Shown here piece by piece: positions 7,950 to 39,864 of a stretch of 44,548 nucleotides of DNA (the stretch's first letter is position 1; each line of letters opens with the position of its first letter). The translations under genes and the position numbers were made by a program. Below the pieces are notes generated by a model, which worked only from the letters and a program-made list of their open reading frames with translations, searched no databases and was not told the DNA's origin. The stretch lies in assembly GCA_020247005.1 (NCBI GenBank), contig JADCJN010000176.1, forward strand, positions 1 through 44,548, written 5' to 3'. Source of the stretch: Silvanigrellales bacterium (lineage in GTDB: Bacteria; Bdellovibrionota_B; Oligoflexia; Silvanigrellales; Silvanigrellaceae).

Positions 7950-10699
7950 AATTGCTGGGTTTGCCGTGTCCCTTGTGACAGAAGTTTTTTCACCACTTCC
8001 ATCACAATGAAGAGAACAAGAGCCGCGCTTGCGGCGGTGAGGAAACTCGCCGCTGGGAGCGCCACCGTGTTGAAAAAGAGATTCAAGGGTTCCAGCACGA
8101 CAACCGTCACTTGCAGCCCGAGTGCAACGAGGATCATGGCCAAAAGCAGGGGGTTTCCAGAGAATCCGGTGCGGAGCGCCGAGACTCTGAAAGAGCGCGC
8201 TGAAAGAGCGCGTGCAAGCTGAGTGAAGGCCAAGGCCGTGAAGAGTGTTGTTCCCCAAAGGAAAATGTCCTGCGGCGTTGCGTTTTCTCCGGGCCATAAG
8301 ACATAGGCGAGTGTCAGCAATGCGACGCCGAGCACGGGCCCAACAACAGCAACGTGAAGGCCTGCTCCGCGGGAAAAGAGCGATTCCGTGGGCGGGTAAG
8401 GCGGTCGCTGCATGGTGTCAGGCTCCGCCTTTTCGAGCCCCATACCAAGGCCAAGAAGGCCATCTGTGAGAAGATTGCTGAACAACACTTGAATGGGTGT
8501 GAGCACTGCTTTCATGCCTGCCAGTGGTGAAAGCGTGACCAACATCACCTTTGCGACATTGCCCGAGAGCGAGAACATAAGGAATCGGCGAAGATTGTCG
8601 AAAACAATGCGCCCTTCTTCCACTGCCGAAACGATGGTCGCAAAGTTGTCGTCGAGCAAGACGATGTCTGCCGCTTCTTTTGCCACATCGGTGCCTGTTC
8701 CCATGGCCACGCCGATGTCAGCTTTGCGCAGAGCGGGCGCATCGTTCACGCCATCGCCGGTCATTGCCACAACGTGACCTCTTGCTTGCAGCGCTGTGAC
8801 AATAAGAAGTTTTTGTTCGGGCGAGACGCGCGCGAAAACTCGCGTGCGTGTGACAAGCTCTTCGAGTCCTGGCCCTCCCAGACGCTGGAGATCCGTTCCC
8901 GAAACCACCGCATCGCTTTGGTCGCAAAGTCCAAGATCCGTAGCAATGGCTTTGGCCGTGGCAGGGTGGTCTCCTGTGATCATGACGACACGAATTCCGG
9001 CGGTGCGGCATTTGGCAATGGCCTCACGTGCCTCCGGACGTGGAGGGTCGACAAGGGAACAGAGCCCAAGAAAGGTAAGTTTTTGTTCGAGCTCGCCCAG
9101 GTTTGCTTCTCGAGGGTTTACAGCCAGAGCACGGCAGGCGACGCCCAAGACGCGTTCCCCGCGCGAAGCCCATGTGGAGGCCAGTGTCAGAATGGCCGAG
9201 CGTTCGTTGGCGTCGAGTTCTGCAGTCGCGTGAATGCCATCTCGCACCACAGACATGTGCGTGCAGCGCGAAAGAATCTGCTCGATAGCACCTTTTGTGA
9301 TAACAATCGCTTCATGTTCCTCGGTGGCATTGAAGGCGCTCCACTCGGAAAGAGGGGTTTCTGGGCCTCGCGCGTGCACAGTGGACATGAGTTTTCGGTC
9401 GGAATCGAACGGGCACTCTGCAAGGCGGGGAAAGAGGGAATCGAGTGTCGATTTCGATGCGCCATGTTCTTTTGCAGCATGAACAAGTGCAATTTCTGTG
9501 GGGTCGCCCGTCCAACCTGCGTTCTCGTTGGTCTGTGTGACGTCGGTGCACAGCGAAAATGCACTGAGTGCGGCAGAGGGCACGACGGCGCAAGACGACG
9601 GATGTTCGCATGAGCCGTACGGTGATGTGGCAAGCTTCACCATGGTCATTTCATTTTGAGTGAGAGTGCCGGTTTTGTCGGAGCAGATGGTGGTGACTGA
9701 ACCCAATGTTTCCACTGCTGGAAGCTTTCGAACCAGGGCTTTTTTGCCTAGCATTCGCTTCGCGCCCACTGCGAGAGTAAACGTAAGCACCGCGGGGAGG
9801 CCTTCAGGAACAATGGCCACGGCTATGCTGATAGACATCACGATGACGCTGGCCAGCGACTTTCCTTCGACAAAAATTCCGATAAGAGCCACCAGAGCAG
9901 CAACAAAAAGCGCAATCCAGGCCAGAGTTCTTCCCAGCGCATCGAGTTTTTTCTGTAGGGGCGTTCTTTCTTTTTTAACGTTCCCTATCATGGTTGCAAT
10001 GCGGCCCAATTCTGTTTCCATACCGGTTGCCACAACAACAACCGTGGCTCGCCCATGGGTGACAAGTGAACCCATGTGAACCATGTTGATGCGGTCCCCA
10101 ATGCCCTGCACCGCGCCGGAAAGCGCTCGTGCGACCTTCTCTGCGGGTTGCGATTCTCCTGTGAGGGAAGCTTCCTGGACGCGAAGATCGTGCGACACCA
10201 AAAGTCTGCCGTCAGCGGGCACGCTTTGGCCGGCCTCAAGCTTCACGACGTCGCCCGGCACCAGCGCTCGAGCGGGCAAGGACACAACGACTTCGTCGCG
10301 AAAAACTTGGGCGTTGGGTGCCGCCATGCGGCCCAGCGCTTCAATGGCCTTCTGAGCTCTGAACTCTTGCACAGTGCCCAGAGCAACAAAAATGGCAATC
10401 ATGGCAAAGATGGCCAGCGCGTCCACGGGCACGCCGCCACTGGACTTGAAGAAGAGAGCCAAGACTCCGGCAACAAAAAGAATGAGGATCATGGTGGACG
10501 ACACCTGTTCGAACAGGATTCCCCTAAGGCCTGACCCCTTTTTTGCACGAATCTCATTGGCGCCTTGTTTTTCAAGTCTTGCTTGAGCCTCGAGTGAGGT
10601 GAGGCCTTGCCAGCCCGAGCCCACCGCCTCGAGCACGTTTTCGGGCTCCAGTTGAGTCCAAACAGCTCGAGGTTTTGTTTCTTTGGTATGTGCATTCAT
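7940..10699 (-). CDS. P2A-type Ca2+-transporting ATPase
   Basis: The 919-residue inner-membrane pump has an N-terminal cation-ATPase domain, the actuator motif TGES (180-183), IVPEGLP in M4 (about 297-302), and the phosphorylation loop [12 protein letters not shown] (D341 is the phosphorylated Asp). It also has [22 protein letters not shown] and a C-terminal transmembrane block with [20 protein letters not shown]. The PEGLP sequence and the TDGL segment in M6 place it with SERCA/PMR1-like bacterial Ca2+ (or Ca2+/Mn2+) exporters rather than heavy-metal pumps. I chose MNAHTKE at 10699, which has GAGAGGA 11-12 bases upstream; the open frame extends further, but the extra residues look non-coding. 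It lies 16 bases downstream of the baeRF-like gene, so the two are probably co-transcribed. Confidence 0.93.
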
Positions 10700-10715
10700 G
10701 AAAAAAAATTTCCTC

Positions 10716-11777
10716 TCAGATGGCGATAAGAGAGGTGCCCAGCGGCATCTGTCTCGATGGGGCGGAATACACCTGTGCATGCGCCCTGAGCGCACGTTCG
10801 GCGATGTCATCAATCACGCAATCGCCAAAGCTTTGCTTGCGATTCTCGTTTAGGAACACGACGCGTCCCTCTTCCCAATCAATCTCTCCTCGCTGTTTGA
10901 GGTCTTCGCGGAAAACGAGAGTCTGCAAATTGCCACTTCGGATCCGCCGCACCACTTCGCTCGGATCGGTCAACGCTTTTCCGCGGTAGTATTCGTTTTG
11001 CAGCAAACGGAGCATGGCGAATTTACCGGCCTCGAGGCCTGTTCGGATGCTCTGCCAACCCTCCTGCACAAAGCCAGAGTTGTGAAAGTCTTCTTTGGAA
11101 GACGAGGGGCGGTTGAGGAACGTTGTGAGAAGTCCAAAACGATGAGCCATGGTTCGCAGGCCGGCGTGGTAGGCTTCTGGTGCGCGGATGACTAGCCGAG
11201 CGGGAACGCTTCCCGAGACGTCTTGTTTGACGCGCCGCAGGAGTCCGAAGGCGGGAGCATCGGTGGTGTTGGCGCCCTGAAGCACTCCGCGCAGGCGTTT
11301 GAGCCCTGCCATGTGAATTCCCGTTTCTTCTGCTTCACCAGCGCGGCACGAAAACAGTCGGGAGTTGTCGTCGGCGATGTCGAGGAGCGACCAGGTGTTC
11401 GAGGCATCGAGAAGAGGAAAGAGAGGTTTGAGGTGAAAGGAGTTCGCCACAGTCACCGACGACTCACAGGCCTCGCGAAGAGGCATGTAGCCGGCAAAAT
11501 CACGGTGCACAAACACGGCCATCCCTCGGGCGTTTGGAAACGGGTTGCGCTCGAGAGTTTTTTCGAACTCCATCAGCGAACGTGTGATGCGCGAACTTGA
11601 AGTCCCTTTTGAGGATGTCTCAAGTACGGTGAGCGCCTCTTTGCGCAAGCGTCGAAAGGCCGCAGACCGCGCTGAAGACTGCAACGCCTTGTTGTCGAGA
11701 GGCAAGTAAACAGACACGCAGGCGTCAAAGTGAACGCCAAGAAGCTCAGACAGTGACGAGAGCGAAATGCGATACAT
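10716..11777 (-). CDS. baeRF-family (bacterial archaeo-eukaryotic release-factor-like) protein
   Basis: The 353-residue cytoplasmic protein has the order I associate with the bacterial eRF1-like (baeRF) group: an N-terminal CVSVYLPLD strand, a central LKPLFPLLDASNTWSLLDIADDNSRLF segment matching the usual 'plLplL...f.vLals.n.vRLf' core, and a C-terminal AERALRAHAQVYSAPSRQMPLGTSLIAI. Most homologues continue a few residues to a final FRY; here the protein stops at IAI. The family was defined computationally and is thought to act on stalled or hibernating ribosomes. The ATG at 11775-11777 has GGAGG five bases upstream; an upstream start at 11843 lacks one. It is the first gene of a unit with the Ca2+ ATPase. 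Confidence 0.7.
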   Translation of the reverse strand: MYRISLSSLSELLGVHFDACVSVYLPLDNKALQSSARSAAFRRLRKEALTVLETSSKGTSSSRITRSLMEFEKTLERNPFPNARGMAVFVHRDFAGYMPLREACESSVTVANSFHLKPLFPLLDASNTWSLLDIADDNSRLFSCRAGEAEETGIHMAGLKRLRGVLQGANTTDAPAFGLLRRVKQDVSGSVPARLVIRAPEAYHAGLRTMAHRFGLLTTFLNRPSSSKEDFHNSGFVQEGWQSIRTGLEAGKFAMLRLLQNEYYRGKALTDPSEVVRRIRSGNLQTLVFREDLKQRGEIDWEEGRVVFLNENRKQSFGDCVIDDIAERALRAHAQVYSAPSRQMPLGTSLIAI

Positions 11778-12166
11778 GGGGGCCTCCAAAAAAGGAGACC
11801 AAGCCTTGGCCAGCCCAAAAGACAGACGTCTTTGAAGCAACACGGGAAGCCGACTTGGTCTGCGCCTTTAAAAAAAGAGTGCGAGACTGTCGGTCTTGCC
11901 CATTCGCATAAGTTGCCACCCACCTGTTCTCGTGCGCATTTGCACAACAAGGCGAAGACGAACGTGCGAACCACCTCACCAGGGACGCAAAACTCACCCC
12001 AACCAAAGGGGCTCGGCCTGCTGCCCGAACTGGTGGCGAGGCGTGCTTTTTAAAAGCCGGCTACTCCCCAACATCTTCAGCGTACCCCTCTCTTCGACCC
12101 GCTTCAAGGTTCGATTAAATGGATAATTTGAATTTTTGAGTTCGCTTTTTTAGAACCAAAAGGACT
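11778..12166. other. 389-base non-coding stretch
   Basis: I find no convincing gene between the LysR stop and the start of the baeRF-like gene, both on the minus strand. No open frame here has a ribosome site and sensible composition, and I cannot fold a tRNA. It must hold the promoter and leader of the baeRF/Ca2+ ATPase unit. The part next to the LysR stop (12110-12160) is AT-rich. Confidence 0.5.
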
Positions 12167-13036
12167 TCAGAGAGAGTGCTTTATGCGCCAATCTTCTTTG
12201 ACTCTGCCGAGTAGGGCCTCCACGAAAGGGCTTTCAGCCGACTCCTCGTGCACGAACGCGAACAAGCCTCTTCCCTCCACGCGAAGCGGTACGTGAGCGT
12301 GTGAAAATTGACCCTGCAAGATTTTCTCATTCACTAAATACGTTGGCAGCAGGCCTGTTCCGAGGCCTGCTGCCACGGCCGACAGAAAGGTGTCCATGCC
12401 GTTGAAGGTCCAACGCGTGGAACGAATCAGCTTTCCTCCCCCAGGGAGCGCAAGTGGGGTTTGCAGATCGCCTTCGCTTGACACCAAGATCTCGTTCGAC
12501 GCGGGCGTGCCAACTGCAGTGCAAAAAATCTTTCCATCTTCGCCCACGAAGTGACTGACGTAAGGGCCCTCGGGGATGCGAGTTGCGAACCGAAACGCCA
12601 AATCGATTTTTCCAAGCGAAAGATCCTCAAGATCGTGACTGGTACGCAGGGCGATTGGGGGGAACGTCCTTTGTTTCTCGTTGGCCACTGCTTCCATAGA
12701 AGCGAATAACGGCATCAGTACGTGGCTTGTGAAAAGGGGTGGTGCCGCAATCACCCATGTTTTTCGCGCGACGCTCGCCCGTTCTTTTGCCCGCGCGACG
12801 CTGCGCGCAAGCGAGGCCGACGTTCGCGCCAAATCAACGGCCAGGACTTCGCCGGCACTCGTGAGAAGAGGACGTCCTGCCTCTTTCCGGAAGAGGGGGA
12901 CACCGACTTCGGCCTCGAGCGCTTTCATGTGTTTACCAACACCGGAAACCGTCATTCCTAAGCGATCGGCGGCACGCGAAAAGCTTCCTGCCTCGACCAC
13001 GACGAGAAACGTTTCCACGGAATTGAGCAACAACAT
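12167..13036 (-). CDS. LysR-family transcriptional regulator
   Basis: The product (289 residues from the preferred start) has the LysR winged helix-turn-helix at its N terminus (SVETFLVVVEAGSFSRAADR, then LGMTVSGVGKHMKALEAEVGVPLF). A two-lobed effector-binding domain follows, with IDLAFRFATRIPEGPYVSHFVGED and GLGTGLLPTYLV. Such proteins usually control the divergent neighbour, here an Old Yellow Enzyme gene. The start MLLLNSV (13034-13036) has TGAGG six bases upstream; the ATG at 13081 adds 15 residues and is possible. The C-terminal sequence matches the subfamily (DNA-binding domain HTH_1, LysR_substrate) in length and order. The effector is unknown, perhaps a substrate of the neighbouring reductase. 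Confidence 0.92.
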   Translation of the reverse strand: MLLLNSVETFLVVVEAGSFSRAADRLGMTVSGVGKHMKALEAEVGVPLFRKEAGRPLLTSAGEVLAVDLARTSASLARSVARAKERASVARKTWVIAAPPLFTSHVLMPLFASMEAVANEKQRTFPPIALRTSHDLEDLSLGKIDLAFRFATRIPEGPYVSHFVGEDGKIFCTAVGTPASNEILVSSEGDLQTPLALPGGGKLIRSTRWTFNGMDTFLSAVAAGLGTGLLPTYLVNEKILQGQFSHAHVPLRVEGRGLFAFVHEESAESPFVEALLGRVKEDWRIKHSL

Positions 13037-27886: not shown

Positions 27887-29998
27887 TTAAGGCATGGCGC
27901 CGGGCTGAACGAGGCGGAGAACTTTTTCAGCACGGCCAATGTTCCCCAGGCCCGCTGGCTCCGGGCGAAGTGCTTCCAAATATCGTGTGCCTATGAGTTC
28001 ACCCCAACACGTGACAGACCCATTCGCATGGCGCGCGCAGGTGTGCTTGCCGCTTGCCGCTACTTCAACGGCATCAGCAACACCTTCTACCGTTGTGGGA
28101 ACAAGCACATTGCTGCTCAAGCCGCTCCCTCCCAGGTTTCCCCATCCGTTGTAACTCTCCAGTTGGAGCCCAGGCACTTTACGGTTTCGTCGTTCAAAAG
28201 AGCGCACATGACCTGGGACCCCACTGCCAACTTTGACACCCCAGTCAAACCCGGGATGGGTACGGGCGAATTTTGGTTTGTTGTGGTGCCGTCGCCAAGT
28301 TGACCTACGTTGTTGAGTCCCCAGCAGCTGACCGAGGCGTCAGAGTGCACGACACAGGCATGCTGTCCGCCCACGTGAACACTTTGAGCATCCGAGATGC
28401 CTGTGACGCTCAAAGGCGTTCCTGAAGATGTGACTTTTGGGTCTACTCCCAGGCCAGCCCATGGCGAGGATCCCCAGCATTTCACCTCACCAGAAGTCAA
28501 GCGCGCACAGTTCCAGTCGCCGCCAAGGCTGATTTGGGTGGCTCCCGAAATCCCGGAAATGGAACCAGGGTGCAAATTGTCGCTGACCGGACCGGGGGAA
28601 TTGGGCCCCCAGCATCGCACGGCGCCGTTGGTGTCGAGGAGGCAGTTGTGCGCGAAACCCGCCTGGAGAGAATTTGCAAAAATTCCAGGAGACTCCGACA
28701 AGGGAATGGGACTCGGGTAAAGATTATTGATGCCTGTGTCTATTCCCAACTGCCCCAGCGTGTTCGAACCCCAGCAGCGGACTCTGCCCGACGACAAGAG
28801 CGCGCAGTGGTGGGTGTTGTTTCCTGCAAAAGCAGACACCCCCGACAGCCCTGGTATAACCTGAGGCACTGTGGACTCAGAGGAGTCAATGCCTCCTCCC
28901 CAGCATGTGAGACGCCCGTCGTCGAGACCCGCACACATTCCCGTACGGGCCACACCAAGGTAACGAGCTCGCCCGTCGATGCCAGGCACGCCAACCGGAG
29001 TCAGGCTGTCTGTCACAGTGCCATCGCTTGCGATGGACGCAGCGTATCCCCAACAGAGCACGGATCCTTCTTGAGTTAAAGCACACGTGCCCGAGTCGCG
29101 CGGCACAGCCATGGCGGCATTTGAAATTCCAGGAACCACCTTCGGTGAAAGGGCGTCTGCCAGGGTGCCATCGCCAATTTGGCCCGACCAGTTCGATCCC
29201 CAGCAGGCAACCTCGCTGTTGTGCTTTACGGCGCAGGTGTGCCAGCCCTCCCTTGCGTTTGAGGCAATGGATTTCACGGCAAGAGGAAGCGCTGTGACCT
29301 CCACGGGAACAGAACTGTCGACTTGCGTCCCAATGCCAAGCTGTCCTTGTCCATTGTACCCCCAGCACCCCGAGCAGTGCTTTTTTGCTGCCTTCACTCA
29401 GCTTCCAAGTCGAGGCCAGGGCATTGGAAGTGGCAACGACAAGAGCCGTGTCGACGCCGAGCTCTTGAAAAACATCGCTCAGAAGGCGCAACGCCTCGCT
29501 AGAATCCTTGATGGCTGAGACGAGGGCAAGGGAGGCCGCGGCGTAGAGACCCGCCCGCGCCGTTTCGGTGTCAGACGCTTTTAAAGGCTTGCCTTCCGCC
29601 TTTGCCGCTTCTGACAAGGCAGCAGGCAGCGAATCGGCAACCGTCAGAAGCGTGGAAGCGAGTTCTTCAGCAGTCAAATTCAAGTTTTTGGCAAGGAGCC
29701 GAGGGAGTGCGGCAAGTATTTTTTGAGCATCCGAAACGGCACCGTTGGACGACGAAAGCACGCGCAGGCTGCCTAAGAGGGCAGCCCTTCGGGGCGCGGG
29801 AATGCGCTTCCTTTCCAGAGCAGAGTTCACAGCGCGCAGCAAAACCTCACGACGCGCAGACGGAGTGCTCGCTCTTTTTGAAGACGAGGGATCGAGAGCC
29901 ACGTCATCGACTGCAATCTGTGACTTCCGACACCCGAGGGTCACTATCGCCAAAATCACAAGAAACGGGAGACTCTTCCGCGCGTACGTCATTGTCAT
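27887..29998 (-). pseudogene. RCC1-repeat lipoprotein gene broken by two frame disruptions
   Basis: The gene starts with a clear lipoprotein leader (LPFLVILAIVTLGC, Cys about 23) and a helical N-terminal domain of about 180 residues. A run of RCC1-like repeats follows, each with HxCA...C[W/L]G-x-N-x2-G-x-LG. I count ten C[W/L]G motifs. No single frame carries it all. The first frame stops making sense at a run of six A (plus-strand T6 at 29381-29386), and the repeats continue in the +1 frame. At 28154-28167 the frame returns to the first one. GAGGTG precedes the ATG at 29998. RCC1-type propellers in bacteria are usually secreted or surface proteins. It may be a decayed gene, a phase-variable gene, or contain one sequencing error; the second lesion does not look like an error. 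Confidence 0.8.
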
Positions 29999-31223: not shown

Positions 31224-32765
31224 TCACTTCGCCATGGAAGACAACGACGCTGCTCCAATCACGGCTTTCAGATCTTCGTCGGTGAAGCGGAGTCCGGCGC
31301 CCACGAAAGCCACAGGCCGTGGGGTGCGGCCAATGTTGTCGGCGCCGCCCGTCACGTAAAAGTTCGGCGTCACGAAAACGTTGGAATAGGCCTTCACACG
31401 TGCAAAGCCTTTTGTGGAGTCGGTGCCTTCGAATTGGTCGTCGCCGAAGTTGAAGACTTCCACAGCGGTGGCGACACGGTCGCCAAAGAGGTAGAGGTCG
31501 CCTGCCACGCCTGCGTAGCTTTCGAAAAGTCCAAACCGAACGCCCACGGCTTCGTAACGCTTCGCGAACTGCGCGTTGAAACGCAGACGGCCTCTGTCTT
31601 CCGGCGTGCGTTCCACTGTTGTGGTGCCGCCATCGGCATTGGGCGATGACGTCGTGATGACGCGCTTGCGGGCCGCTGGGCTGTCGGAAATCCCAAGGAG
31701 GTAGTAGCGGTCGGGCCGGGTGGAAAGACGCACATTGAAGTGGTTGCCATAGCGGCCCAATGCCACGTTTTCTTTCGAGCGGACCTCACCCTTGTAGTCG
31801 ACCTCCACCTGCAGCTTTGTGGCGGGCGCAAGTACGTCCTTGATGCTTTTGAGGGTCGAACGGATGTCGTTGGCGGTGTCGTCTTTGCTCACCAACTGCC
31901 CCAACGTCCCTTCGCCCTTTTCCACTTTGTCGACAATGAGCTGCACTTTCGACGAGGCCTGCCGGATGTTCAACATGGAGTCGTCGATGCTCGCAATGAT
32001 GTTTTCCATGCGGCCCTTGTTTGGCCCCGTGACCATCGTCTTGAGTTCCGACGTGAAGGCTTTGACGTCCGACATGCTCGACTGAACCGAGGCGATGACT
32101 TCGTCGATGCGGCCATCGTTGCGTTCCAGCATGGCGTTCACACGTTCGGTGGATTCGCGCAGGTTCGCAATGATGCGCGCGACGTTTTCTTTTTCAGTTG
32201 AAATGACGTTGCGGGTGTCCGCCGTAATGGCTTCGATGTTTGCCAAAATATTCTGGAGGGAGTTCTTCCCGCCTTCTGATCCGAGCACCTTTGAAAGCGT
32301 GCTCGACACGGTTTTGATGTCGGTGGCAATGGAACCCATGGACGCCATGAGCGCGCTCATGTCGTTGAGTTCTTTCATTTTGGGGATCATTTCCCCAGGA
32401 CGAAGATTCTCTTCGGAGCCTTCGGCGCGAACAACTTCGAGGTAAACGTCGCCGAGAATGCCTTTGCTGCGAAGCTCAATGAATGACCCTTTCGGGATGC
32501 CAACCTTCGAACTGATTTTGAAGTTCACCCTCGCCCCTTTTGGGAGGATGTCGATGCTTGTGACTTCACCCACCTGCACGCCGCTCGTGCGCACCTGGGT
32601 GCGTTGCCCTACGCCCCCGACGTTGTCGAGGACTGTATAAAAGTCGATGGCGCGGGAGCTGAAGGGATTGCCCTCGAGCGTGACAATGAGTGTCCCCAAG
32701 ATGCCGAAACCGGCCACCGCGAAGAGACCCACTTTTAATTCTGTCGACACACTACGGGTGAGCAT
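31224..32765 (-). CDS. mlaD: MlaD-like MCE protein fused to a probable outer-membrane barrel
   Basis: The 513-residue product has an inner-membrane anchor (KVGLFAVAGFGILGTLIV, about 11-28), an MCE domain (about 37-115, with VGQRTQVRTSGVQVGEV and SKGILGDVYLEVV), then a long helical section (about 130-310). The last 200 residues alternate polar and hydrophobic positions in the manner of an outer-membrane barrel (YYLLGISD, RLRFNAQFAKRYEAVGVRFGLFE, FYVTGGADNIGR, FVGAGLRF). MCE proteins form hexameric rings that shuttle phospholipids between membranes. A C-terminal barrel would let one protein span the envelope, as reported for the Veillonella Mla system. GCAGGT lies upstream of the ATG. It is separated from mlaF by 209 bases, unlike the tight spacing of the other operon genes. 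Confidence 0.88.
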   Translation of the reverse strand: MLTRSVSTELKVGLFAVAGFGILGTLIVTLEGNPFSSRAIDFYTVLDNVGGVGQRTQVRTSGVQVGEVTSIDILPKGARVNFKISSKVGIPKGSFIELRSKGILGDVYLEVVRAEGSEENLRPGEMIPKMKELNDMSALMASMGSIATDIKTVSSTLSKVLGSEGGKNSLQNILANIEAITADTRNVISTEKENVARIIANLRESTERVNAMLERNDGRIDEVIASVQSSMSDVKAFTSELKTMVTGPNKGRMENIIASIDDSMLNIRQASSKVQLIVDKVEKGEGTLGQLVSKDDTANDIRSTLKSIKDVLAPATKLQVEVDYKGEVRSKENVALGRYGNHFNVRLSTRPDRYYLLGISDSPAARKRVITTSSPNADGGTTTVERTPEDRGRLRFNAQFAKRYEAVGVRFGLFESYAGVAGDLYLFGDRVATAVEVFNFGDDQFEGTDSTKGFARVKAYSNVFVTPNFYVTGGADNIGRTPRPVAFVGAGLRFTDEDLKAVIGAASLSSMAK

Positions 32766-32974: not shown

Positions 32975-33760
32975 TCATGTGATGGGCTTTGAAAGGGGAC
33001 CTTCCAGACCACCCTCAAGGAATTGCCTGATGAGCGGGTCTTGGCTTTTGCGGAACTCGTCGGGAGTTCCCTGAAGAAAGACTTTACCTTCGTGCAAGAA
33101 CACGATGTCGTCGGCCACATGGAGAATCGAGCGCACATCGTGACTGATGACCACCGAAGAAAGCGTTTTTCCTTGCTTCGTTCTTTGCGTCTGCATGTCG
33201 ACAATGAGCTTGTCAATGAGCTCACTCACCAAGGAGTCCATACCTGTCGTGGGCTCATCGTAAAGAAGGAGCTTGGGGTCGAGGGAAAGGGCTCGCGCCA
33301 AACCAACGCGTTTCTTTTCACCAATGGAAAGTTCTGTCGGGAATTTGTTGCCGATGCCGGGCAAACCCACAGACTCCAAGAGCTCTTCCACGCGAGCATT
33401 TTTTTCCTTCAGGGTGGTGCCTTTTTGTTCGTTTAAGGCAAAAGCAACGTTTTCTGAAACAGAAAGAGAGTCGAAAAGGGCCCCGTCTTGGAACAAGAGT
33501 CCTATTTTTCTTCTTTCGGCTTCCCAGGTGCGTTGCGACGCGTTGGACATGTCTTGCCCGTCGAAAGAGACACGCCCCACGTCAGGTTTCAGTATTCCCA
33601 CAATGTGTTTGATGGAAACAGACTTGCCTTCGCCGGATCGCCCAATGATGAAAGTGATGCCCCCTTCTTTCACCGACAGTGTGATACCGCGCAGCACTTT
33701 GTTCGACCCGAAGGTTTTGTGCACGTTGTGGAATTCGACGATGTTGCGAGCGGGGTTCAA
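32975..33760 (-). CDS. mlaF: MlaF-like ABC transporter ATPase
   Basis: The 261-residue ABC ATPase has Walker A GRSGEGKS, a Q-loop LLFQDGALFDSLSVSENVAF typical of MlaF/Mkl, signature LSIGEKKRVGLARAL, Walker B LLLYDEPTTGMD and the H-loop VVISHD. It powers phospholipid movement through the MlaE-MlaD complex at the inner membrane. The signature reads LSIGE where most MlaF proteins have LSGGM or LSGGQ. The start is TTG (33758-33760), 10 bases after the mlaE stop; the frame has no ATG or GTG upstream before a stop. It is downstream of mlaE on the same strand. Confidence 0.93.
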   Translation of the reverse strand: MNPARNIVEFHNVHKTFGSNKVLRGITLSVKEGGITFIIGRSGEGKSVSIKHIVGILKPDVGRVSFDGQDMSNASQRTWEAERRKIGLLFQDGALFDSLSVSENVAFALNEQKGTTLKEKNARVEELLESVGLPGIGNKFPTELSIGEKKRVGLARALSLDPKLLLYDEPTTGMDSLVSELIDKLIVDMQTQRTKQGKTLSSVVISHDVRSILHVADDIVFLHEGKVFLQGTPDEFRKSQDPLIRQFLEGGLEGPLSKPIT

Positions 33761-33770
33761 GCTCTTGGGC

Positions 33771-34553
33771 TCACTTCATTTGAAAATATGTGATGAAGAA
33801 GTCGATAATCAGAATGGCGAGCAGCGAGGTGACCACGGCCTGAGTCGTGGCTTCTCCGACGCCTTTGGCGCCTCCACGGGCATAATACCCACGGTAACAC
33901 GCGACTGAAGAGAGAATGAATCCGAACACTGTGGCTTTGAAAAGGCCCTTTCGAATGTCAGACACCCACACGAGTTGTTGAAGTTGGCTCAGAAAGACTT
34001 GGCTGTCGACCTTGAAGAGAGTTTGTCCTACAACATAGCAGCCAAGAACCCCCAAGGTCAGGAAAATTCCCGAGAGCACAGGCATCATCAGCGTGGCAGC
34101 CAGCACGCGAGGCACAATGAGGTAACTGATGGGGTCAACGCCCATGGCTTCCATGGCATCTATCTGCTCGTTCACTCTCATGGTCGCAATTTCAGCCGCC
34201 ATGGCAGCACCCGCACGCCCTGTGACAATAAACCCGCACATGACAGGGGCGAGCTCGAGGGCGAGGCTTTTTCCTGTAGCCGCTCCCATAATGCCTTCAG
34301 CCTGAAAAAGACCGAAGATTTTGCCGAGCTGGAGTCCAAGCACAGCGCCCGTAAAAACAGACGACAGCAAAATGATGTTGAAGCTCTTGTTGCCCACGAA
34401 ATGGAGCTGCCGAAAAACGAGCCGAACACGGTAAGGCGGCCGCACCATCCAATAAAAAACTTCTCGAAGGAGCAGAGTATATCGACCCATCCCAATGACG
34501 CTTTTGCGCAGCGAAGAACCGAAACTTTCGAGACTCCGCAGGACAAATTCCAT
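33771..34553 (-). CDS. mlaE: MlaE-like ABC permease
   Basis: The 260-residue permease of the MlaE family carries the diagnostic loop ATMRVNEQIDAMEAMGVDPISYLIVPRV and the preceding TGRAGAAMAAEIA. Five to six hydrophobic segments are visible, starting at about residue 58 (NIILLSSVFTGAVLGLQLG) and ending at the C terminus (LLAILIIDFFITYFQ). It forms the dimeric membrane core on which MlaF (ATPase) and MlaD (MCE ring) assemble. Its ATG directly abuts the TAA of the upstream Get3-like gene (TAAATG), so translation is very likely coupled. No STAS protein MlaB is nearby. Confidence 0.94.
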   Translation of the reverse strand: MEFVLRSLESFGSSLRKSVIGMGRYTLLLREVFYWMVRPPYRVRLVFRQLHFVGNKSFNIILLSSVFTGAVLGLQLGKIFGLFQAEGIMGAATGKSLALELAPVMCGFIVTGRAGAAMAAEIATMRVNEQIDAMEAMGVDPISYLIVPRVLAATLMMPVLSGIFLTLGVLGCYVVGQTLFKVDSQVFLSQLQQLVWVSDIRKGLFKATVFGFILSSVACYRGYYARGGAKGVGEATTQAVVTSLLAILIIDFFITYFQMK

Positions 34554-35741
34554 TTAGGGCCTCCCTTGCACGGCAGCTGAAGAAGGTTGTTCCGCGAGCT
34601 TTTCACGTAGGAGCTCGCCTAAGCCTGCCAAATCGTCCATGCGGACTTCACGCGCCGCATCGAGCTTCGATGCGATGGGAAGTAGAGCAATCCGTTTCGG
34701 GCTGAAGCGTGCCATGCTTTGTGTCACCTTGTCTTGTGTGCGAACATAACTCGAGAGCGAATTCGCGAAGAAGCGCGCATGGGAAGCACCCTCCTTGGAA
34801 GCTTCCTCCGCTGCCTTTGGCAAGAGGCCCTGCCCCGCAGGCTCAGCCAGAAACGCCGCGAAGGCCGAGTCGGCACGGAGGGCATCAGGAAAGCTGCGAT
34901 TGATGGCAACGTAAACATTTTGCGCATTGAAAGAGCGAAGCACACTTCCCAGTTCAAGGCTCACCCGAGCGGCATCATCGCGCACTGCCGTAACAAGGTA
35001 AAAGGAGGTTTCGGGGCTGGCAAGCCAAACCCTCGCCCGTTCAAGCCGCGTAAGCATCCGCACAAAAACTTCGTCGAGCAAAATCAGGAATTCGCCGAAG
35101 TTGATGAGGAACGTTTGTCCGCCGATTTGCGCAAGCCCATCGAGCACACGCCTTGCACCGGCTTTCACCACCTTTTGCCAGAGCGTCGACTTTTGTTCTC
35201 GCTCACCCACGAAGGCTTTGAGCCAGTCAACAAGTTTGGAGTCGAGAAATTCCATGAGGCGGCCGGGCTTGGTGAGAAAGTCGATGGCGTGAACACCGGG
35301 TGCGGTGTCGATGACGAGATCTTCGAGTTCGGGCCATTGCTCGAGCCATTCCGCCATGCGCACGGCTGCGAAGGTGTCTGTGCTCGACGCAATTTTGTCG
35401 GCCACGGCTTTAAAAAACGGATTGGTGAAAAGCGTTTCTTCCACATCGTTCGGAAGACCTTGTTCGCGCACCCAGCGTCGGAAACTCTCGCCCACGTGGA
35501 GAAGAGAAGCTCGCAATTCGCCCTCCCCTTCCTTGTAGAGCGTGCGTCCGGTTTCCGGGAGGTCGCCCGCTGACAAGGCGCTTTGAAGGCGCTTGGCCGG
35601 GTCGATGGACAGCAGTGCAACCTTGCGTCCTGAACGGGCCAACGCGGCCGCGTAGCCCGCGGAAAGCGTTGTTTTTCCAACGCCGCCAGCACCCAGGAAA
35701 ATGTGAAGGCGAGGCCAACGAGACCCCTGATGTTTCGTCAT
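34554..35741 (-). CDS. Get3/ArsA-like ATPase, second of a pair
   Basis: The 395-residue protein is a SIMIBI-class ATPase with the P-loop GAGGVGKTTLSAG (residues about 17-29), a switch-I-like LLSIDPAKRLQSAL and a Walker-B-like VIDTAPGVHAIDFL. In this family the first residues usually read GKGGVGKT; here the signature Lys at the second position is Ala, while the P-loop Lys remains. A long helical insertion (about 165-260) could be the client-binding groove. No arsenite-binding Cys pattern is visible, so arsenite export is unlikely; a Get3-like role in handling membrane proteins fits better. The ATG overlaps the stop of its upstream paralogue by 4 bases. Mycobacteria have a comparable pair (Rv3679-Rv3680). 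Confidence 0.85.
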   Translation of the reverse strand: MTKHQGSRWPRLHIFLGAGGVGKTTLSAGYAAALARSGRKVALLSIDPAKRLQSALSAGDLPETGRTLYKEGEGELRASLLHVGESFRRWVREQGLPNDVEETLFTNPFFKAVADKIASSTDTFAAVRMAEWLEQWPELEDLVIDTAPGVHAIDFLTKPGRLMEFLDSKLVDWLKAFVGEREQKSTLWQKVVKAGARRVLDGLAQIGGQTFLINFGEFLILLDEVFVRMLTRLERARVWLASPETSFYLVTAVRDDAARVSLELGSVLRSFNAQNVYVAINRSFPDALRADSAFAAFLAEPAGQGLLPKAAEEASKEGASHARFFANSLSSYVRTQDKVTQSMARFSPKRIALLPIASKLDAAREVRMDDLAGLGELLREKLAEQPSSAAVQGRP

Positions 35742-36715
35742 GCCTTGGCCACCCCCGCGTCTCGAAGCTCGATTTCTCGAAGCTCGTTTGCGAGGAACGC
35801 CGGAACTTCTTTTTCGGTAAGCTCGGGATGTGTGAGAGCCACATCCGACAACACCGCAACGGGAATGCCCTGCTGCGCGCAGGCCGACGCAAGTTGTCGT
35901 TCAAAGGCGTTGCGCTTCAAAAGGTCGCCCAAAAGAAGGCGCGCGCCTTCGCGTGCGGCGTCCGACCCCAGGCTCTGCGAGAAGGCAAGGTACCAGCTTT
36001 CCGAAGCGAGACTTTGAGCATCGCCTTGGGAATGCCGAGAAATGCTTTTGTTGATGGCCATGAGAAGCGGAGGTCTCCCGAGTTCCCTTTGAAGCTTTGG
36101 AAGCGACTCGAGAGTTTCCTCGACGGGCAGTTCTTCGGGAAGTGTGACGAACACGGTTCCCACCTTCGTTGCGTCGGCAAGAAGACGCGCCACGCGTTCG
36201 CACTCGTGGGCAAGTGGACCCGTCATGCCAAACGAGGCGATGGTGGGTGCGATGGTGAACAGGGAAACGCCGTGGCCCGTGGCGGGGGTGTCGACAATAA
36301 CACGGTTGTAGCTCCACCCACGCGCTTCCTGGGCAAGCTCGACGAGCCACAAAAGACGCCCGAGAAAGAAGAGTTCCTGAACCCCGGGGGCAGCGTGAAT
36401 GAGCCGCTGCACGTGTTTGTTTTCAATGACAATGGAATGCAGAAGGCGCATTCCCAGGTGGTCGACGAAGTACTCGCGCATGGCCTCGTCGACGTTGAAA
36501 TTCATGGTGGAAATGTTTTTCATCACTTCGCGTTCGGTGTGCCCGACCGACGGAAGCCCATACCGTGGCGAAAGGGCATCTTGCAGGGCCCACTGCACCA
36601 CCAACACCCGCTCTCCCTTCTGGGCGAATGCGGTGGCGAGGGCCATGGCACAAGTGGTTCGGCCGACGCCGCCCTTGCCCAGGACGAAAAGGAGTTTTTG
36701 GCGGATGGGCTCCAT
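35738..36715 (-). CDS. Get3/ArsA-like ATPase, first of a pair
   Basis: The 325-residue paralogue of the following gene carries the full deviant Walker A GKGGVGRTT (residues about 13-21), in which the last Lys is replaced by Arg but the signature Lys is kept. It also has VIVDTPATGHGVSLF (switch II region) and KSISRHS near the adenine site. The two neighbours are complementary: this one keeps the signature Lys and lacks the P-loop Lys, the other keeps the P-loop Lys and lacks the signature Lys. This strongly suggests a heterodimer sharing active sites. It starts 4 bases after the tatA stop. The role is inferred as membrane-protein targeting. Confidence 0.85.
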   Translation of the reverse strand: MEPIRQKLLFVLGKGGVGRTTCAMALATAFAQKGERVLVVQWALQDALSPRYGLPSVGHTEREVMKNISTMNFNVDEAMREYFVDHLGMRLLHSIVIENKHVQRLIHAAPGVQELFFLGRLLWLVELAQEARGWSYNRVIVDTPATGHGVSLFTIAPTIASFGMTGPLAHECERVARLLADATKVGTVFVTLPEELPVEETLESLPKLQRELGRPPLLMAINKSISRHSQGDAQSLASESWYLAFSQSLGSDAAREGARLLLGDLLKRNAFERQLASACAQQGIPVAVLSDVALTHPELTEKEVPAFLANELREIELRDAGVAKA

Positions 36716-36719
36716 GGGG

Positions 36720-37124
36720 CTAGCCCTGGTTTTCGCTGTCGACGTCGACGACCTGAGCCCGAGGAGGTGCCGCCGCCGATGTCACAGGGGTGCTCCCTGC
36801 GAGGGGAGTGGGAGGATTCGATGTCTGCACCCTCGCCTTGACGGCCGTCGTGCTTGAAGCTGACGCCGCCTGAGGTTCTGCCCCGCTTGAGTCGTAGACA
36901 ACGCCCGATGCTGTCTGCGATTCTGAGAGACGGTTGTCGGAAGGCGCCGTTTTTGGGCCTCGTGCGGGAGGCGCGTCGCCTTCGTCGTGGCCACCCGAAA
37001 GTCCCTTTTTAAAGTTTCGAATACCGGAACCGAGCGCCTTGCCTACGCCGGGCAAGCGAGAACCAAAGAGAAGCACCGCCAAGGCCGCGATGATGAGGAG
37101 TTCCGTGAGGCCTATCTGCGGCAT
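36720..37124 (-). CDS. tatA: TatA/E-family twin-arginine translocase subunit
   Basis: The 134-residue protein has the TatA pattern: a single N-terminal membrane helix (IGLTELLIIAALAVLLFGS), the FG hinge, then the amphipathic helix RLPGVGKALGSGIRNFKKGL. TatA oligomers form the passage for folded, cofactor-loaded proteins. The remaining 85 residues are Ala/Pro/Ser-rich and longer than in most TatA proteins. GAGGG lies six bases before the ATG. tatB and tatC are not in the window. It opens the operon with the two Get3-like ATPases and mlaEFD, and is divergent from mqnE. Confidence 0.92.
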   Translation of the reverse strand: MPQIGLTELLIIAALAVLLFGSRLPGVGKALGSGIRNFKKGLSGGHDEGDAPPARGPKTAPSDNRLSESQTASGVVYDSSGAEPQAASASSTTAVKARVQTSNPPTPLAGSTPVTSAAAPPRAQVVDVDSENQG

Positions 37125-37258
37125 GGATGCCCTCTTTGCGAACGGTGAGGAGGGAGACTACGAGAGCCAGAGCTCCTGCCACGCGAACTCCCGGGACTTG
37201 CTTGTGCGTGACCCGAGGTGTTACCAAATTTCAGGAATTTAGAAAAGAAAGGTCCGAA

Positions 37259-38494
37259 ATGGAGCCCCAAGTGGAGCCGCTTCTTGCCGCCGCCCCGCAC
37301 CGTCCTCCGGCTACGGAGCAGGCCAAGGCGGCCCGCAACCCAACGCCCTTCACGAGAGTAGCGTATGCAGACGTGCAGCGCGCCTTGAGGAAAGCCCTTC
37401 GTGGCGAACGTTTGACGTTCGACGACGGCGTGAACCTGTACCATGCTCCCGACCTCGTAGAGCTTGGCGCTGTCGCAGACGAAGTGAATCGCTCCAAAAA
37501 CGGTCGAGACGTTTATTTCAACGTCAACCGGCACATCAACCCAACTAACGTTTGCGCGCTGAGCTGCAAGTTCTGCGCATTCTCGCGCAAGCCCGGTGAA
37601 CCAGGCTCGTATGCGTACACCGACGATGAACTTGCGACGCGCGCTCAGGCCGCGGCCGCTTCCGGCGCCACGGAAATTCACATGGTGGGTGGCCTTCACC
37701 CGCGCTGGAATTTGAAGAACTACCAGAACATCATTCGGGTGGTGAAAGAAAACGCTCCTGAAGCGCACATCAAAGCCTTCACCGCCGTTGAGCTCGACTG
37801 GCTTTCGAGGCGCGAGCGCAAGACAGTAGCCGAAATTCTGGAGGCCTTGAAGGAAGCGGGCCTTGCGAGTCTGCCGGGCGGCGGTGCAGAGATTTTCGCG
37901 CCTTATGTGCGCGACCTCATTTGCGACACGAAGCTTTCGGCCGAAGGCTGGATAGACATCCACCGCACAGCGCACAGGCTCGGCCTGCGATCGAACTGCA
38001 CCATGCTGTATGGGCACATCGAAGACGTGGAGTCGCGGGTCGACCATGTTTTGAGGCTGCGCGCGCTGCAAGACGAAACTGAAGGTTTTCAGGTGTTCAT
38101 TCCTTTGGCTTTTCAGCCCGAGAACAACGACCTCGGCATAACGAAACACACCTATGGCGTCGACGACCTCAAAACCATCGCGGTGTCGCGTCTCATGCTC
38201 GACAACTTCCGGAATGTGAAGGCCTACTGGATTATGATGGGCGATCGAATGGCCCAGTCTGCCCTTCACTTCGGTGCAAACGATGTCGATGGAACGGTGG
38301 TGGAAGAAAAAATTGCGAACATGGCAGGAAGCCGCAGTGGCATGGCCTTTGCGAAGTCGCGCTTGTTACGCCTCATTCGCTCGGCCGATCGCATTCCCGT
38401 TGAACGTTCGACCACTTACCAACCTCTGCGCCGCTACGAAAACCCGCAAGAAGACGACATTCCGCATGACGATGGAAAGGAGGGAACGCCATGA
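37259..38494 (+). CDS. mqnE: Aminodeoxyfutalosine synthase (radical SAM)
   Basis: MqnE adds the radical from S-adenosylmethionine to 3-(1-carboxyvinyloxy)benzoate, making aminodeoxyfutalosine, an early step of futalosine-dependent menaquinone synthesis. The 411-residue product has the radical SAM cluster CALSCKFCAF (C-x3-C-x2-C), preceded by YFNVNRHINPTNVC. Other family segments are HMVGGLHPRWNL, GGGAEIFAPYVR and ALHFGANDVDGTVVEEKI. AAAGG lies seven bases before the ATG at 37259. An open frame upstream (to 37127) overlaps tatA and is not used. It overlaps mqnC by 4 bases (ATGA). Confidence 0.94.
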   Translation: MEPQVEPLLAAAPHRPPATEQAKAARNPTPFTRVAYADVQRALRKALRGERLTFDDGVNLYHAPDLVELGAVADEVNRSKNGRDVYFNVNRHINPTNVCALSCKFCAFSRKPGEPGSYAYTDDELATRAQAAAASGATEIHMVGGLHPRWNLKNYQNIIRVVKENAPEAHIKAFTAVELDWLSRRERKTVAEILEALKEAGLASLPGGGAEIFAPYVRDLICDTKLSAEGWIDIHRTAHRLGLRSNCTMLYGHIEDVESRVDHVLRLRALQDETEGFQVFIPLAFQPENNDLGITKHTYGVDDLKTIAVSRLMLDNFRNVKAYWIMMGDRMAQSALHFGANDVDGTVVEEKIANMAGSRSGMAFAKSRLLRLIRSADRIPVERSTTYQPLRRYENPQEDDIPHDDGKEGTP

Positions 38495-39864
38495 GCCTCG
38501 AGACAACCCGTGTTCGCCTCGAATCGGAGAGGGGCGCCTACGTGAATTGCGCGAGTCGCCCCGAACACGCTTTTCATCCGGATGCGTTCAAAGAATCCCT
38601 GCGTGGCCGCACTCGCTTGGGTGCGCCCGGTTGGCAAGAGGCTCCCACTCTCCCTGAGCTTTTGGAGCGCGATGCCACGCGCCTCGCGGCTGCAAGCCAG
38701 GTTCTGCGCACAGAGCGTGTGCAAGAACACCTCGTGAAAGCAAAAATAGAGGCGCTTCCTGGCGGCCTCTTGAAGGAGGCTTACGAGAAAGCCTGGAAGC
38801 TCGAACGTCTCACCGAGGCAGAAGGTCTTGAGCTTTTGGTGAACGGTGAGCTCATGATCCTTGGCACGCTCGCCACGCGCATGAAGGAACGTTTTCATCC
38901 ACATCGCAAAGTGAGCTTCCTGCTCGACAGGAACATCAACTACACAAACATCTGCCGTATCGGTTGCGATTTTTGCGCTTTTTACCGGCGCGAAAAAGAC
39001 ACCGAAGGGGCCTACACACTTTCGTCTGAAGTCATCCATCAGAAAATTGAAGAGACCATTGCTTTGGGCGGTACGGGCGTGCTCATGCAAGGTGGCGTGA
39101 ATCCCCACCTGAAAATCGAGTATTACGAAGACCTGTTTCGTGGCATCAAGCAACGCTTTGACATCCACCTTCACGCCCTCTCGGTGATTGAAATCGAAGG
39201 CATTGCCCGCGTGTCTCGTTTAACGCTCGCGGAAACTCTAGAGCGCCTCAAAGCAGCCGGACTCGACTCCATTCCGGGAGCGGGCGCCGAAATTCTTGTC
39301 GACGAAATTCGTCTCGATCAGAGCCCCGTAAAGCGCCACGCCCACCGCTGGATAGACGTGATGAAAGAGGCCCACAAGGCCGGCCTCCCCACCACAGCAA
39401 CCATGATGTTTGGAGCTTTGGAAGAACCTCGTCACGTGCTGGAGCACATCAAGCGCATCCGCGATGCGCAAGACGAAACCAATGGTTTCTATGCCTTCAT
39501 CATGTGGACGTTTCAGGGTGAAAATACGGAACTCGCAAAAAAACACCCCGACATCGTGCTGACGTCGGCTGTGGAGTACTTGAAGGTCGTCGCTGTGTCG
39601 CGTCTCATGATGGACAATATTCCCAACATTCAGGGAAGCTGGGTCACGATGGGGCCAAAGGTGGGTCAGACCTCGCTGCATTTTGGCGCTAACGACATGG
39701 GCTCTATTATGATAGAAGAAAATGTTGTGAGTGCTGCAGGAACAGCCTTTCAATTGGACCGTGAAAGCATGAAGGAACTTATTCGCCGTTCTGGTTTCAC
39801 CCCTCTTCAGCGCGACACCTACTACAACATCCTTGCGGAATTCCCCGAGGCCACACCGGCGTGA
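38491..39864 (+). CDS. mqnC: Cyclic dehypoxanthinylfutalosine synthase (radical SAM) with extended N terminus
   Basis: MqnC cyclises dehypoxanthinylfutalosine in the menaquinone pathway. The core (from about residue 92, GLLKEAYEKAWKLERLTEAEG) has NINYTNICRIGCDFCAFYRR with the C-x3-C-x2-C iron-sulfur site, GVLMQGGVNPHLKIEYYEDL, IPGAGAEILVDEIR and LHFGANDMGSIMIEENVV. The family usually has about 360-370 residues; this protein has 457. The first 90 residues contain two CAS/ASR-like segments and several Arg/Glu-rich helices that I cannot assign. The ATG overlaps the mqnE stop and has AAGGAGGG seven bases upstream, so the long form is probably the real one. Confidence 0.93.
   Translation: MSLETTRVRLESERGAYVNCASRPEHAFHPDAFKESLRGRTRLGAPGWQEAPTLPELLERDATRLAAASQVLRTERVQEHLVKAKIEALPGGLLKEAYEKAWKLERLTEAEGLELLVNGELMILGTLATRMKERFHPHRKVSFLLDRNINYTNICRIGCDFCAFYRREKDTEGAYTLSSEVIHQKIEETIALGGTGVLMQGGVNPHLKIEYYEDLFRGIKQRFDIHLHALSVIEIEGIARVSRLTLAETLERLKAAGLDSIPGAGAEILVDEIRLDQSPVKRHAHRWIDVMKEAHKAGLPTTATMMFGALEEPRHVLEHIKRIRDAQDETNGFYAFIMWTFQGENTELAKKHPDIVLTSAVEYLKVVAVSRLMMDNIPNIQGSWVTMGPKVGQTSLHFGANDMGSIMIEENVVSAAGTAFQLDRESMKELIRRSGFTPLQRDTYYNILAEFPEATPA

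Follow-up and report, generated by a model that had tools for sequence, protein, structure and literature searches.

The long MlaD protein encoded in the window (the whole stretch of 44,548 nucleotides that was analyzed, contig C86 in a draft genome of 4.28 Mb and 291 contigs, 91.8% complete) serves, with a probability of roughly 80% for the scheme as a whole, as the MlaD component of a trans-envelope transporter for phospholipids that is made up of three parts, MlaE, MlaF and MlaD. We infer that the host is a Silvanigrellales relative within the phylum Bdellovibrionota, and no ordinary proteobacterium. A preliminary description of the DNA had seen in this protein a possible one-protein bridge across the envelope. 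The term "one-protein" overstates the case, since MlaE and MlaF, the ABC components, are encoded in the same operon and, to our knowledge, the MCE proteins characterized so far form hexamers.

Gene, operon and N-terminal architecture

The mlaD reading frame is complete from ATG to stop and had been delimited exactly (Table 1). It is the last gene of an operon in which two ArsA/Get3-type ATPase genes are followed by mlaE, mlaF and mlaD, and the presence of mlaF and mlaE directly upstream makes the case stronger. There is a 4-nt overlap between the two ATPase genes and no spacer between the second and mlaE, so that arsA-arsA-mlaE, at least, look translationally coupled; mlaE and mlaF are separated by 10 nt, and mlaF and mlaD by 209 nt. 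Promoter and terminator sites near the operon were not more frequent in a scan than in shuffled sequences. Two adjacent radical-SAM-like genes (37127-39864) are divergent from the operon and resemble MqnE and MqnC, proteins of the futalosine menaquinone pathway; they are named from sequence only, and this neighborhood is seen in the closest genus only. Elsewhere in the window, a lipoprotein-like ORF (28886-29998) and an RCC1-repeat ORF (28117-29397) overlap out of frame on the same strand, and the tail of the former is a wrong-frame reading of the RCC1 region. This region (28117-29998) probably contains a frameshift, either from a sequencing error or in a decayed gene.

Table 1. Coordinates of the mla operon, the parts of the long MlaD and the second mla locus. 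Positions are those of the window, except for the last row.
Feature	Position	Strand	Evidence or remark
Long MlaD (anchor, MCE, helical stalk, C-terminal beta-barrel, the last of these probable)	31224..32765	-	513 aa; ORF, Pfam and 26-homologue alignment
N-terminal inner-membrane helix, residues 8-31	32673..32744	-	predicted helix (low pLDDT there), hydrophobic sequence
MCE/MlaD domain, about residues 39-118	32412..32651	-	PF02470; pLDDT mostly about 70-80
Alpha-helical stalk, candidate tunnel, about residues 135-316	31818..32363	-	helical moment, DSSP helices of AlphaFold model
Ten-strand C-terminal domain, probable outer-membrane barrel, residues 317-494	31284..31817	-	sequence, alignment, model
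Last strand FVGAGLRF, beta-signal-like, residues 486-494	31284..31310	-	invariant G491, near-invariant G489 and F494
Conserved C-terminal tail TDEDLKAVIGAASL	31227..31283	-	predicted helix
MlaF, ABC ATPase	32975..33760	-	NCBIfam MlaF best match (E=1.1e-51, under model cut-off); ABC_tran
MlaE, permease	33771..34553	-	PF02405 (E=6.3e-75); TIGR00056 above cut-off
ArsA/Get3-type ATPase, BagB (Rv3680)-like	34554..35741	-	P-loop GAGGVGKT without signature lysine
ArsA/Get3-type ATPase, BagA (Rv3679)-like	35738..36715	-	P-loop GKGGVGRT
tatA-like gene	36720-37124	same as mlaD	upstream of the ATPase genes
Second mlaE-mlaF-mlaD locus, L099 (G000:C196:12000-29370)	10367-12904		

The N-terminal parts named in the preliminary description, namely an inner-membrane anchor, an MCE domain and about 180 helical residues, were all recovered. 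Pfam assigns residues 41-112 to PF02470 (E=1.2e-14), with no further convincing family in the protein. Residues 133-316 carry a strong helical periodicity (z=6.5 over shuffles), whose spectrum peaks near 3.55 and near 3.63-3.67 residues. The main clades of homologues differ in stalk length by 7, 7 and 18 residues, that is by whole helical turns, and two single homologues deviate by 4 and 5 residues. The stalk is read as a helical bundle, with which its periodicity and the majority of these length differences agree. The MlaD profile matches PDB 8fed over both the MCE and the helical parts.

Distribution of the long MlaD and of MlaC in two phyla

No mlaA or mlaC had been seen near the gene, and neither MlaA nor MlaC was found when the source genome was searched for both, with E. 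coli and Caulobacter positive as controls. Likewise, both are missing from all genomes of the Bdellovibrionota group that were covered (0/56). A homologue of the long MlaD is found in 54 of the 58 genomes of the phylum, one of these being a fragment at a contig end. PF02470 occurs in 51/56 phylum genomes and nearly always only once, so the long MlaD is usually the sole MCE protein. Thus, an arrangement that had been taken for an oddity in a proteobacterium-like genome is standard for this phylum, whose genomes usually have no other MlaD. No MlaD was found in one relative of the same family (92% complete). Another relative encodes, in addition to its own barrel-bearing MlaD, a 907-aa ORF with six MlaD-domain matches, resembling the multi-MCE proteins LetB/YebT (G027:C14:3618-5921). 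Two scans of viral contigs gave no relatives.

A profile of the C-terminal domain (A3) also matches 63 of 118 genomes of a second phylum, that of a Thermodesulfovibrionales MAG and probably Nitrospirota, mostly in ORFs of 465-600 aa. The gene order mlaE-mlaF-mlaD is seen in 19/20 sampled loci, the contig of the twentieth being too short for mlaE. MlaC is found in 50 of these genomes. Barrel-bearing MlaD is found without MlaC in 60 genomes and MlaC without barrel-bearing MlaD in 47; 3 have both (G058, G087 and G171) and 8 have neither (Fisher p=9.5e-21, with shared ancestry ignored and independence therefore overstated). This near-exclusion supports replacement of the shuttle by the barrel protein. 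It also quantifies a trend described in qualitative terms only in the main text of the earlier survey (PMC10665443), and singles out the genomes in which the swap between shuttle and barrel is open to study.

Unlike most relatives, which have one MCE protein only, the source genome carries a second mlaE-mlaF-mlaD set, on contig C196. Its MlaD has 323 residues and ends after the helical part, without a barrel. The tetranucleotide profile of this contig matches that of the window (r=0.969), so contamination is unlikely, and a barrel is thus not required for every MlaEFD in this organism. Of the preliminary description, an MlaD with a probable outer-membrane barrel, the absence of MlaA and MlaC and a trans-envelope system of the Veillonella type are supported; the second, barrel-less MlaEFD is a correction to it.

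The second locus is one of two points that could favor a reading in which the barrel is an anchor or spacer only, with lipids carried by an unknown periplasmic carrier or through an unrelated outer-membrane partner. The other is that most long MlaDs are without a complete barrel, and that a stabilizing or anchoring role has been suggested for the domain in certain species (PMC10665443). Against this, the long helical stalk and the near-exclusion of barrel-bearing MlaD and MlaC suggest that the extended protein stands in place of a carrier. We regard a purely anchoring role as possible, if somewhat unlikely.

The C-terminal domain and the proposed lipid path

The C-terminal domain is probably an outer-membrane barrel, as judged from its sequence. 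The helical signal is absent from residues 317-498 and is replaced by a modest beta-type alternation (z=1.8 with 26 sequences, z=2.2 with 39 sequences). Ten amphipathic beta-strands were picked from the sequence, in a domain of about 180 residues, the final VGAGLRF strand (residues 488-494) lying where the preliminary description had seen it. In 39 sequences from two phyla, the strands and the connections T1-T4 are constant in length, and four connections vary (L1 5-11, L2 23-36, L4 6-15 and L5 9-18 residues). All four variable connections fall on one side, a pattern that is supportive and no blind test, as the alignment was in sight when the borders of the strands were chosen. With a periplasmic N-terminal stalk, the variable side would be the cell-surface side; if the strands number ten, the C-terminal tail, conserved as TDxDLKxxxGxA, must be periplasmic. 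The last strand resembles the beta-signal (GxGLxF) that is read by the BAM machinery.

The two faces of the strands differ in conservation. In a membrane barrel, lipid-facing residues need hydrophobicity only and the lumen is conserved, whereas in a soluble domain it is the buried face that is conserved. In the C-terminal domain, conservation is higher on the polar face, although marginally (2.78 vs 2.44 bits, p=0.057), and in the MCE domain of the same proteins the order is reversed (polar 2.46 vs hydrophobic 3.03, p=0.068). Six strand residues are fully invariant (R410, G412, G419, D423, G474 and G491), all of them on the polar face. The outer-membrane barrel that was earlier claimed to be fused to MlaD is therefore a probable reading of the sequence.

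Structural comparisons point in the same direction at low confidence. AlphaFold models were built as single chains from a three-sequence alignment (the window protein and two relatives from a scan of genome contigs), and are both weak for that reason (full-length MlaD, pLDDT 43.5; C-terminal domain alone, pLDDT 51.6, pTM 0.45). Most of the ten strands picked from the sequence reappear at matching places in the low-confidence model. A Foldseek search gave no significant match (best E 0.023; all > 0.02). Its top non-significant matches are mostly membrane barrels (VDAC, OEP21, FapF, OMPLA and porins), with a few soluble proteins, and were used as a hint only. The domain has no match in Pfam and no convincing one in a PDB profile search; the single hit there, to SAKe6FE (1.6e-5 over 46 positions), was regarded as a chance match.

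The domain could instead be a soluble periplasmic beta-barrel, a lipocalin-like lipid cup exchanging lipids with the outer membrane without insertion. Strand alternation and loops that vary on one side only are known from soluble calyx barrels as well, lipocalin-type proteins (nitrophorins, odorant-binding protein) are among the non-significant Foldseek matches, and the confidence of the AlphaFold models is low. However, conservation of the polar face, with all the invariant strand residues, is the opposite of what is seen in the soluble MCE domain, the last strand is beta-signal-like, and a construct of the barrel of the Veillonella parvula relative is recovered in the outer-membrane fraction (PMC10665443). 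A soluble cup is therefore considered very unlikely. A join of MlaD and barrel created by misassembly or fusion in a 291-contig draft is ruled out by conservation across genomes, since the full-length architecture is phylum-wide, single-contig assemblies included, and the C-terminal domain recurs in the second phylum (63/118).

In the trans-envelope scheme, MlaE and MlaF, by their family assignment, form the inner-membrane ABC motor. By analogy with characterized MCE proteins, six copies of MlaD probably form an MCE ring on MlaE and MlaF. Their six helical regions may build a hydrophobic tunnel across the periplasm, which at about 180 residues x 0.15 nm could have a length of at most 27 nm, provided that the helices are continuous and fully extended. 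The ten-strand domains would then probably be inserted in the outer membrane via BAM, docking the tunnel at the inner leaflet. Along the tunnel, phospholipids may travel between MlaE and that leaflet, passing beneath the barrels or in the gaps between them and staying outside their polar lumens. A channel continuing through the barrel, as first proposed, is disfavored because the inward, non-lipid face has conserved charges and the V. parvula barrel was called too narrow for a phospholipid by its authors (PMC10665443). From the sequence, passage via the helical tunnel thus appears more likely than passage via the barrel lumen. With lipids moving along such a tunnel, the MlaC shuttle and the MlaA lipoprotein would not be needed. 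By analogy with Veillonella and E. coli, retrograde transport is the likelier direction. The genome also encodes four Omp85 proteins and two TamB-type proteins; as TamB-type proteins have been proposed for the opposite direction in Veillonella, they could by analogy be the opposing pathway here.

The BagAB-like ATPase pair and comparison with known systems

A pair of ArsA-type ATPase genes precedes mlaE in 16 of the 19 phylum loci with enough upstream sequence, in six families (loci L035-L054) across which the MlaDs are only about 35% identical and other neighboring genes vary. In these loci the second ATPase always has G[AS]GGVGK, without the signature lysine, and the first always has GKGG, the P-loop being GKGGVGRT in the family of the window. 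The best PDB matches of the first and second ATPase are Rv3679 and Rv3680, respectively, chains of one solved complex (PDB 6bs3), and NCBIfam BagA and BagB are their best matches, but under the cut-offs. From this sequence pattern, the two would be an obligate heterodimer in which one site is complete. No such pair is present beside mlaEFD in the 20 sampled loci of the second phylum, so it is no general part of the trans-envelope system.

In this phylum, the trans-envelope MlaEFD and a dedicated cytosolic BagAB-like heterodimer might form a five-gene lipid-transport unit not described before, in which the pair would, for example, regulate MlaF/MlaE or, as a targeting factor, insert MlaE or MlaD. 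This is put forward tentatively and judged unlikely. No paper tying such ArsA/Get3-type ATPases to Mla was found in the literature searched. The pair next to mlaE is nonetheless the freshest lead, giving a testable handle on a poorly understood ATPase pair shared with mycobacteria, which also use MCE transporters. The mycobacterial bagAB genes have been tied to glycerol and nitric-oxide tolerance (PMC10597346). Like the pair here, mycobacterial BagA and BagB (Rv3679/Rv3680) are paired Get3/ArsA-type ATPases, with GAGGVGKT in BagB. The pair differs in being linked to mlaEFD, and in that GKGGVGRT replaces GKGG[TI]GK in the BagA of the window's family.

Among MCE systems, PqiB and mycobacterial Mce1A-1F (PDB 8fed) have an MCE ring and long helices forming a tunnel, as is proposed here. 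However, their chains are without a complete C-terminal outer-membrane barrel, and mycobacterial Mce1 is a heterohexamer. The six-component Mla system of E. coli (MlaFEDB-MlaC-MlaA) has the MCE domain, the MlaE permease and the MlaF ATPase in common with the system here; MlaB is a generic STAS protein. In contrast, E. coli MlaD has 183 residues, with neither stalk nor barrel (PMC10665443), and needs MlaC and MlaA, both absent here.

The closest known system, as the preliminary description had recognized, is MlaEFD of V. parvula. Grasekamp et al. 2023 described its MlaD as an anchor, an MCE domain, a helical region and a predicted ten-strand barrel, and reported mutant phenotypes (PMC10665443). 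By described architecture, the two systems share the anchor, MCE domain and helical region of MlaD and probably its ten-strand barrel, as well as mlaE and mlaF and the absence of MlaA and MlaC. They differ in the length of MlaD (513 aa here, 419 aa in V. parvula) and of its helical region (about 180 and about 150 residues), and in the presence here of the BagAB-like pair upstream and of the second, barrel-less MlaEFD. In the survey of the same authors, 103 MlaDs (about 10%) carry a barrel, in Terrabacteria, some Proteobacteria and related phyla, and the genomes encoding them tend to be without MlaA and MlaC (PMC10665443). Thus, the barrel-bearing trans-envelope MlaD was already published in 2023 as widely distributed, and the protein described here belongs to that type. 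Beyond that work, the present analysis contributes a rule that holds across the Bdellovibrionota group, figures for the exclusion in a second phylum, and the neighboring genes. For the idea that in many diderm bacteria phospholipids travel along a fixed bridge rather than by shuttle, the protein is a further, phylum-level example.
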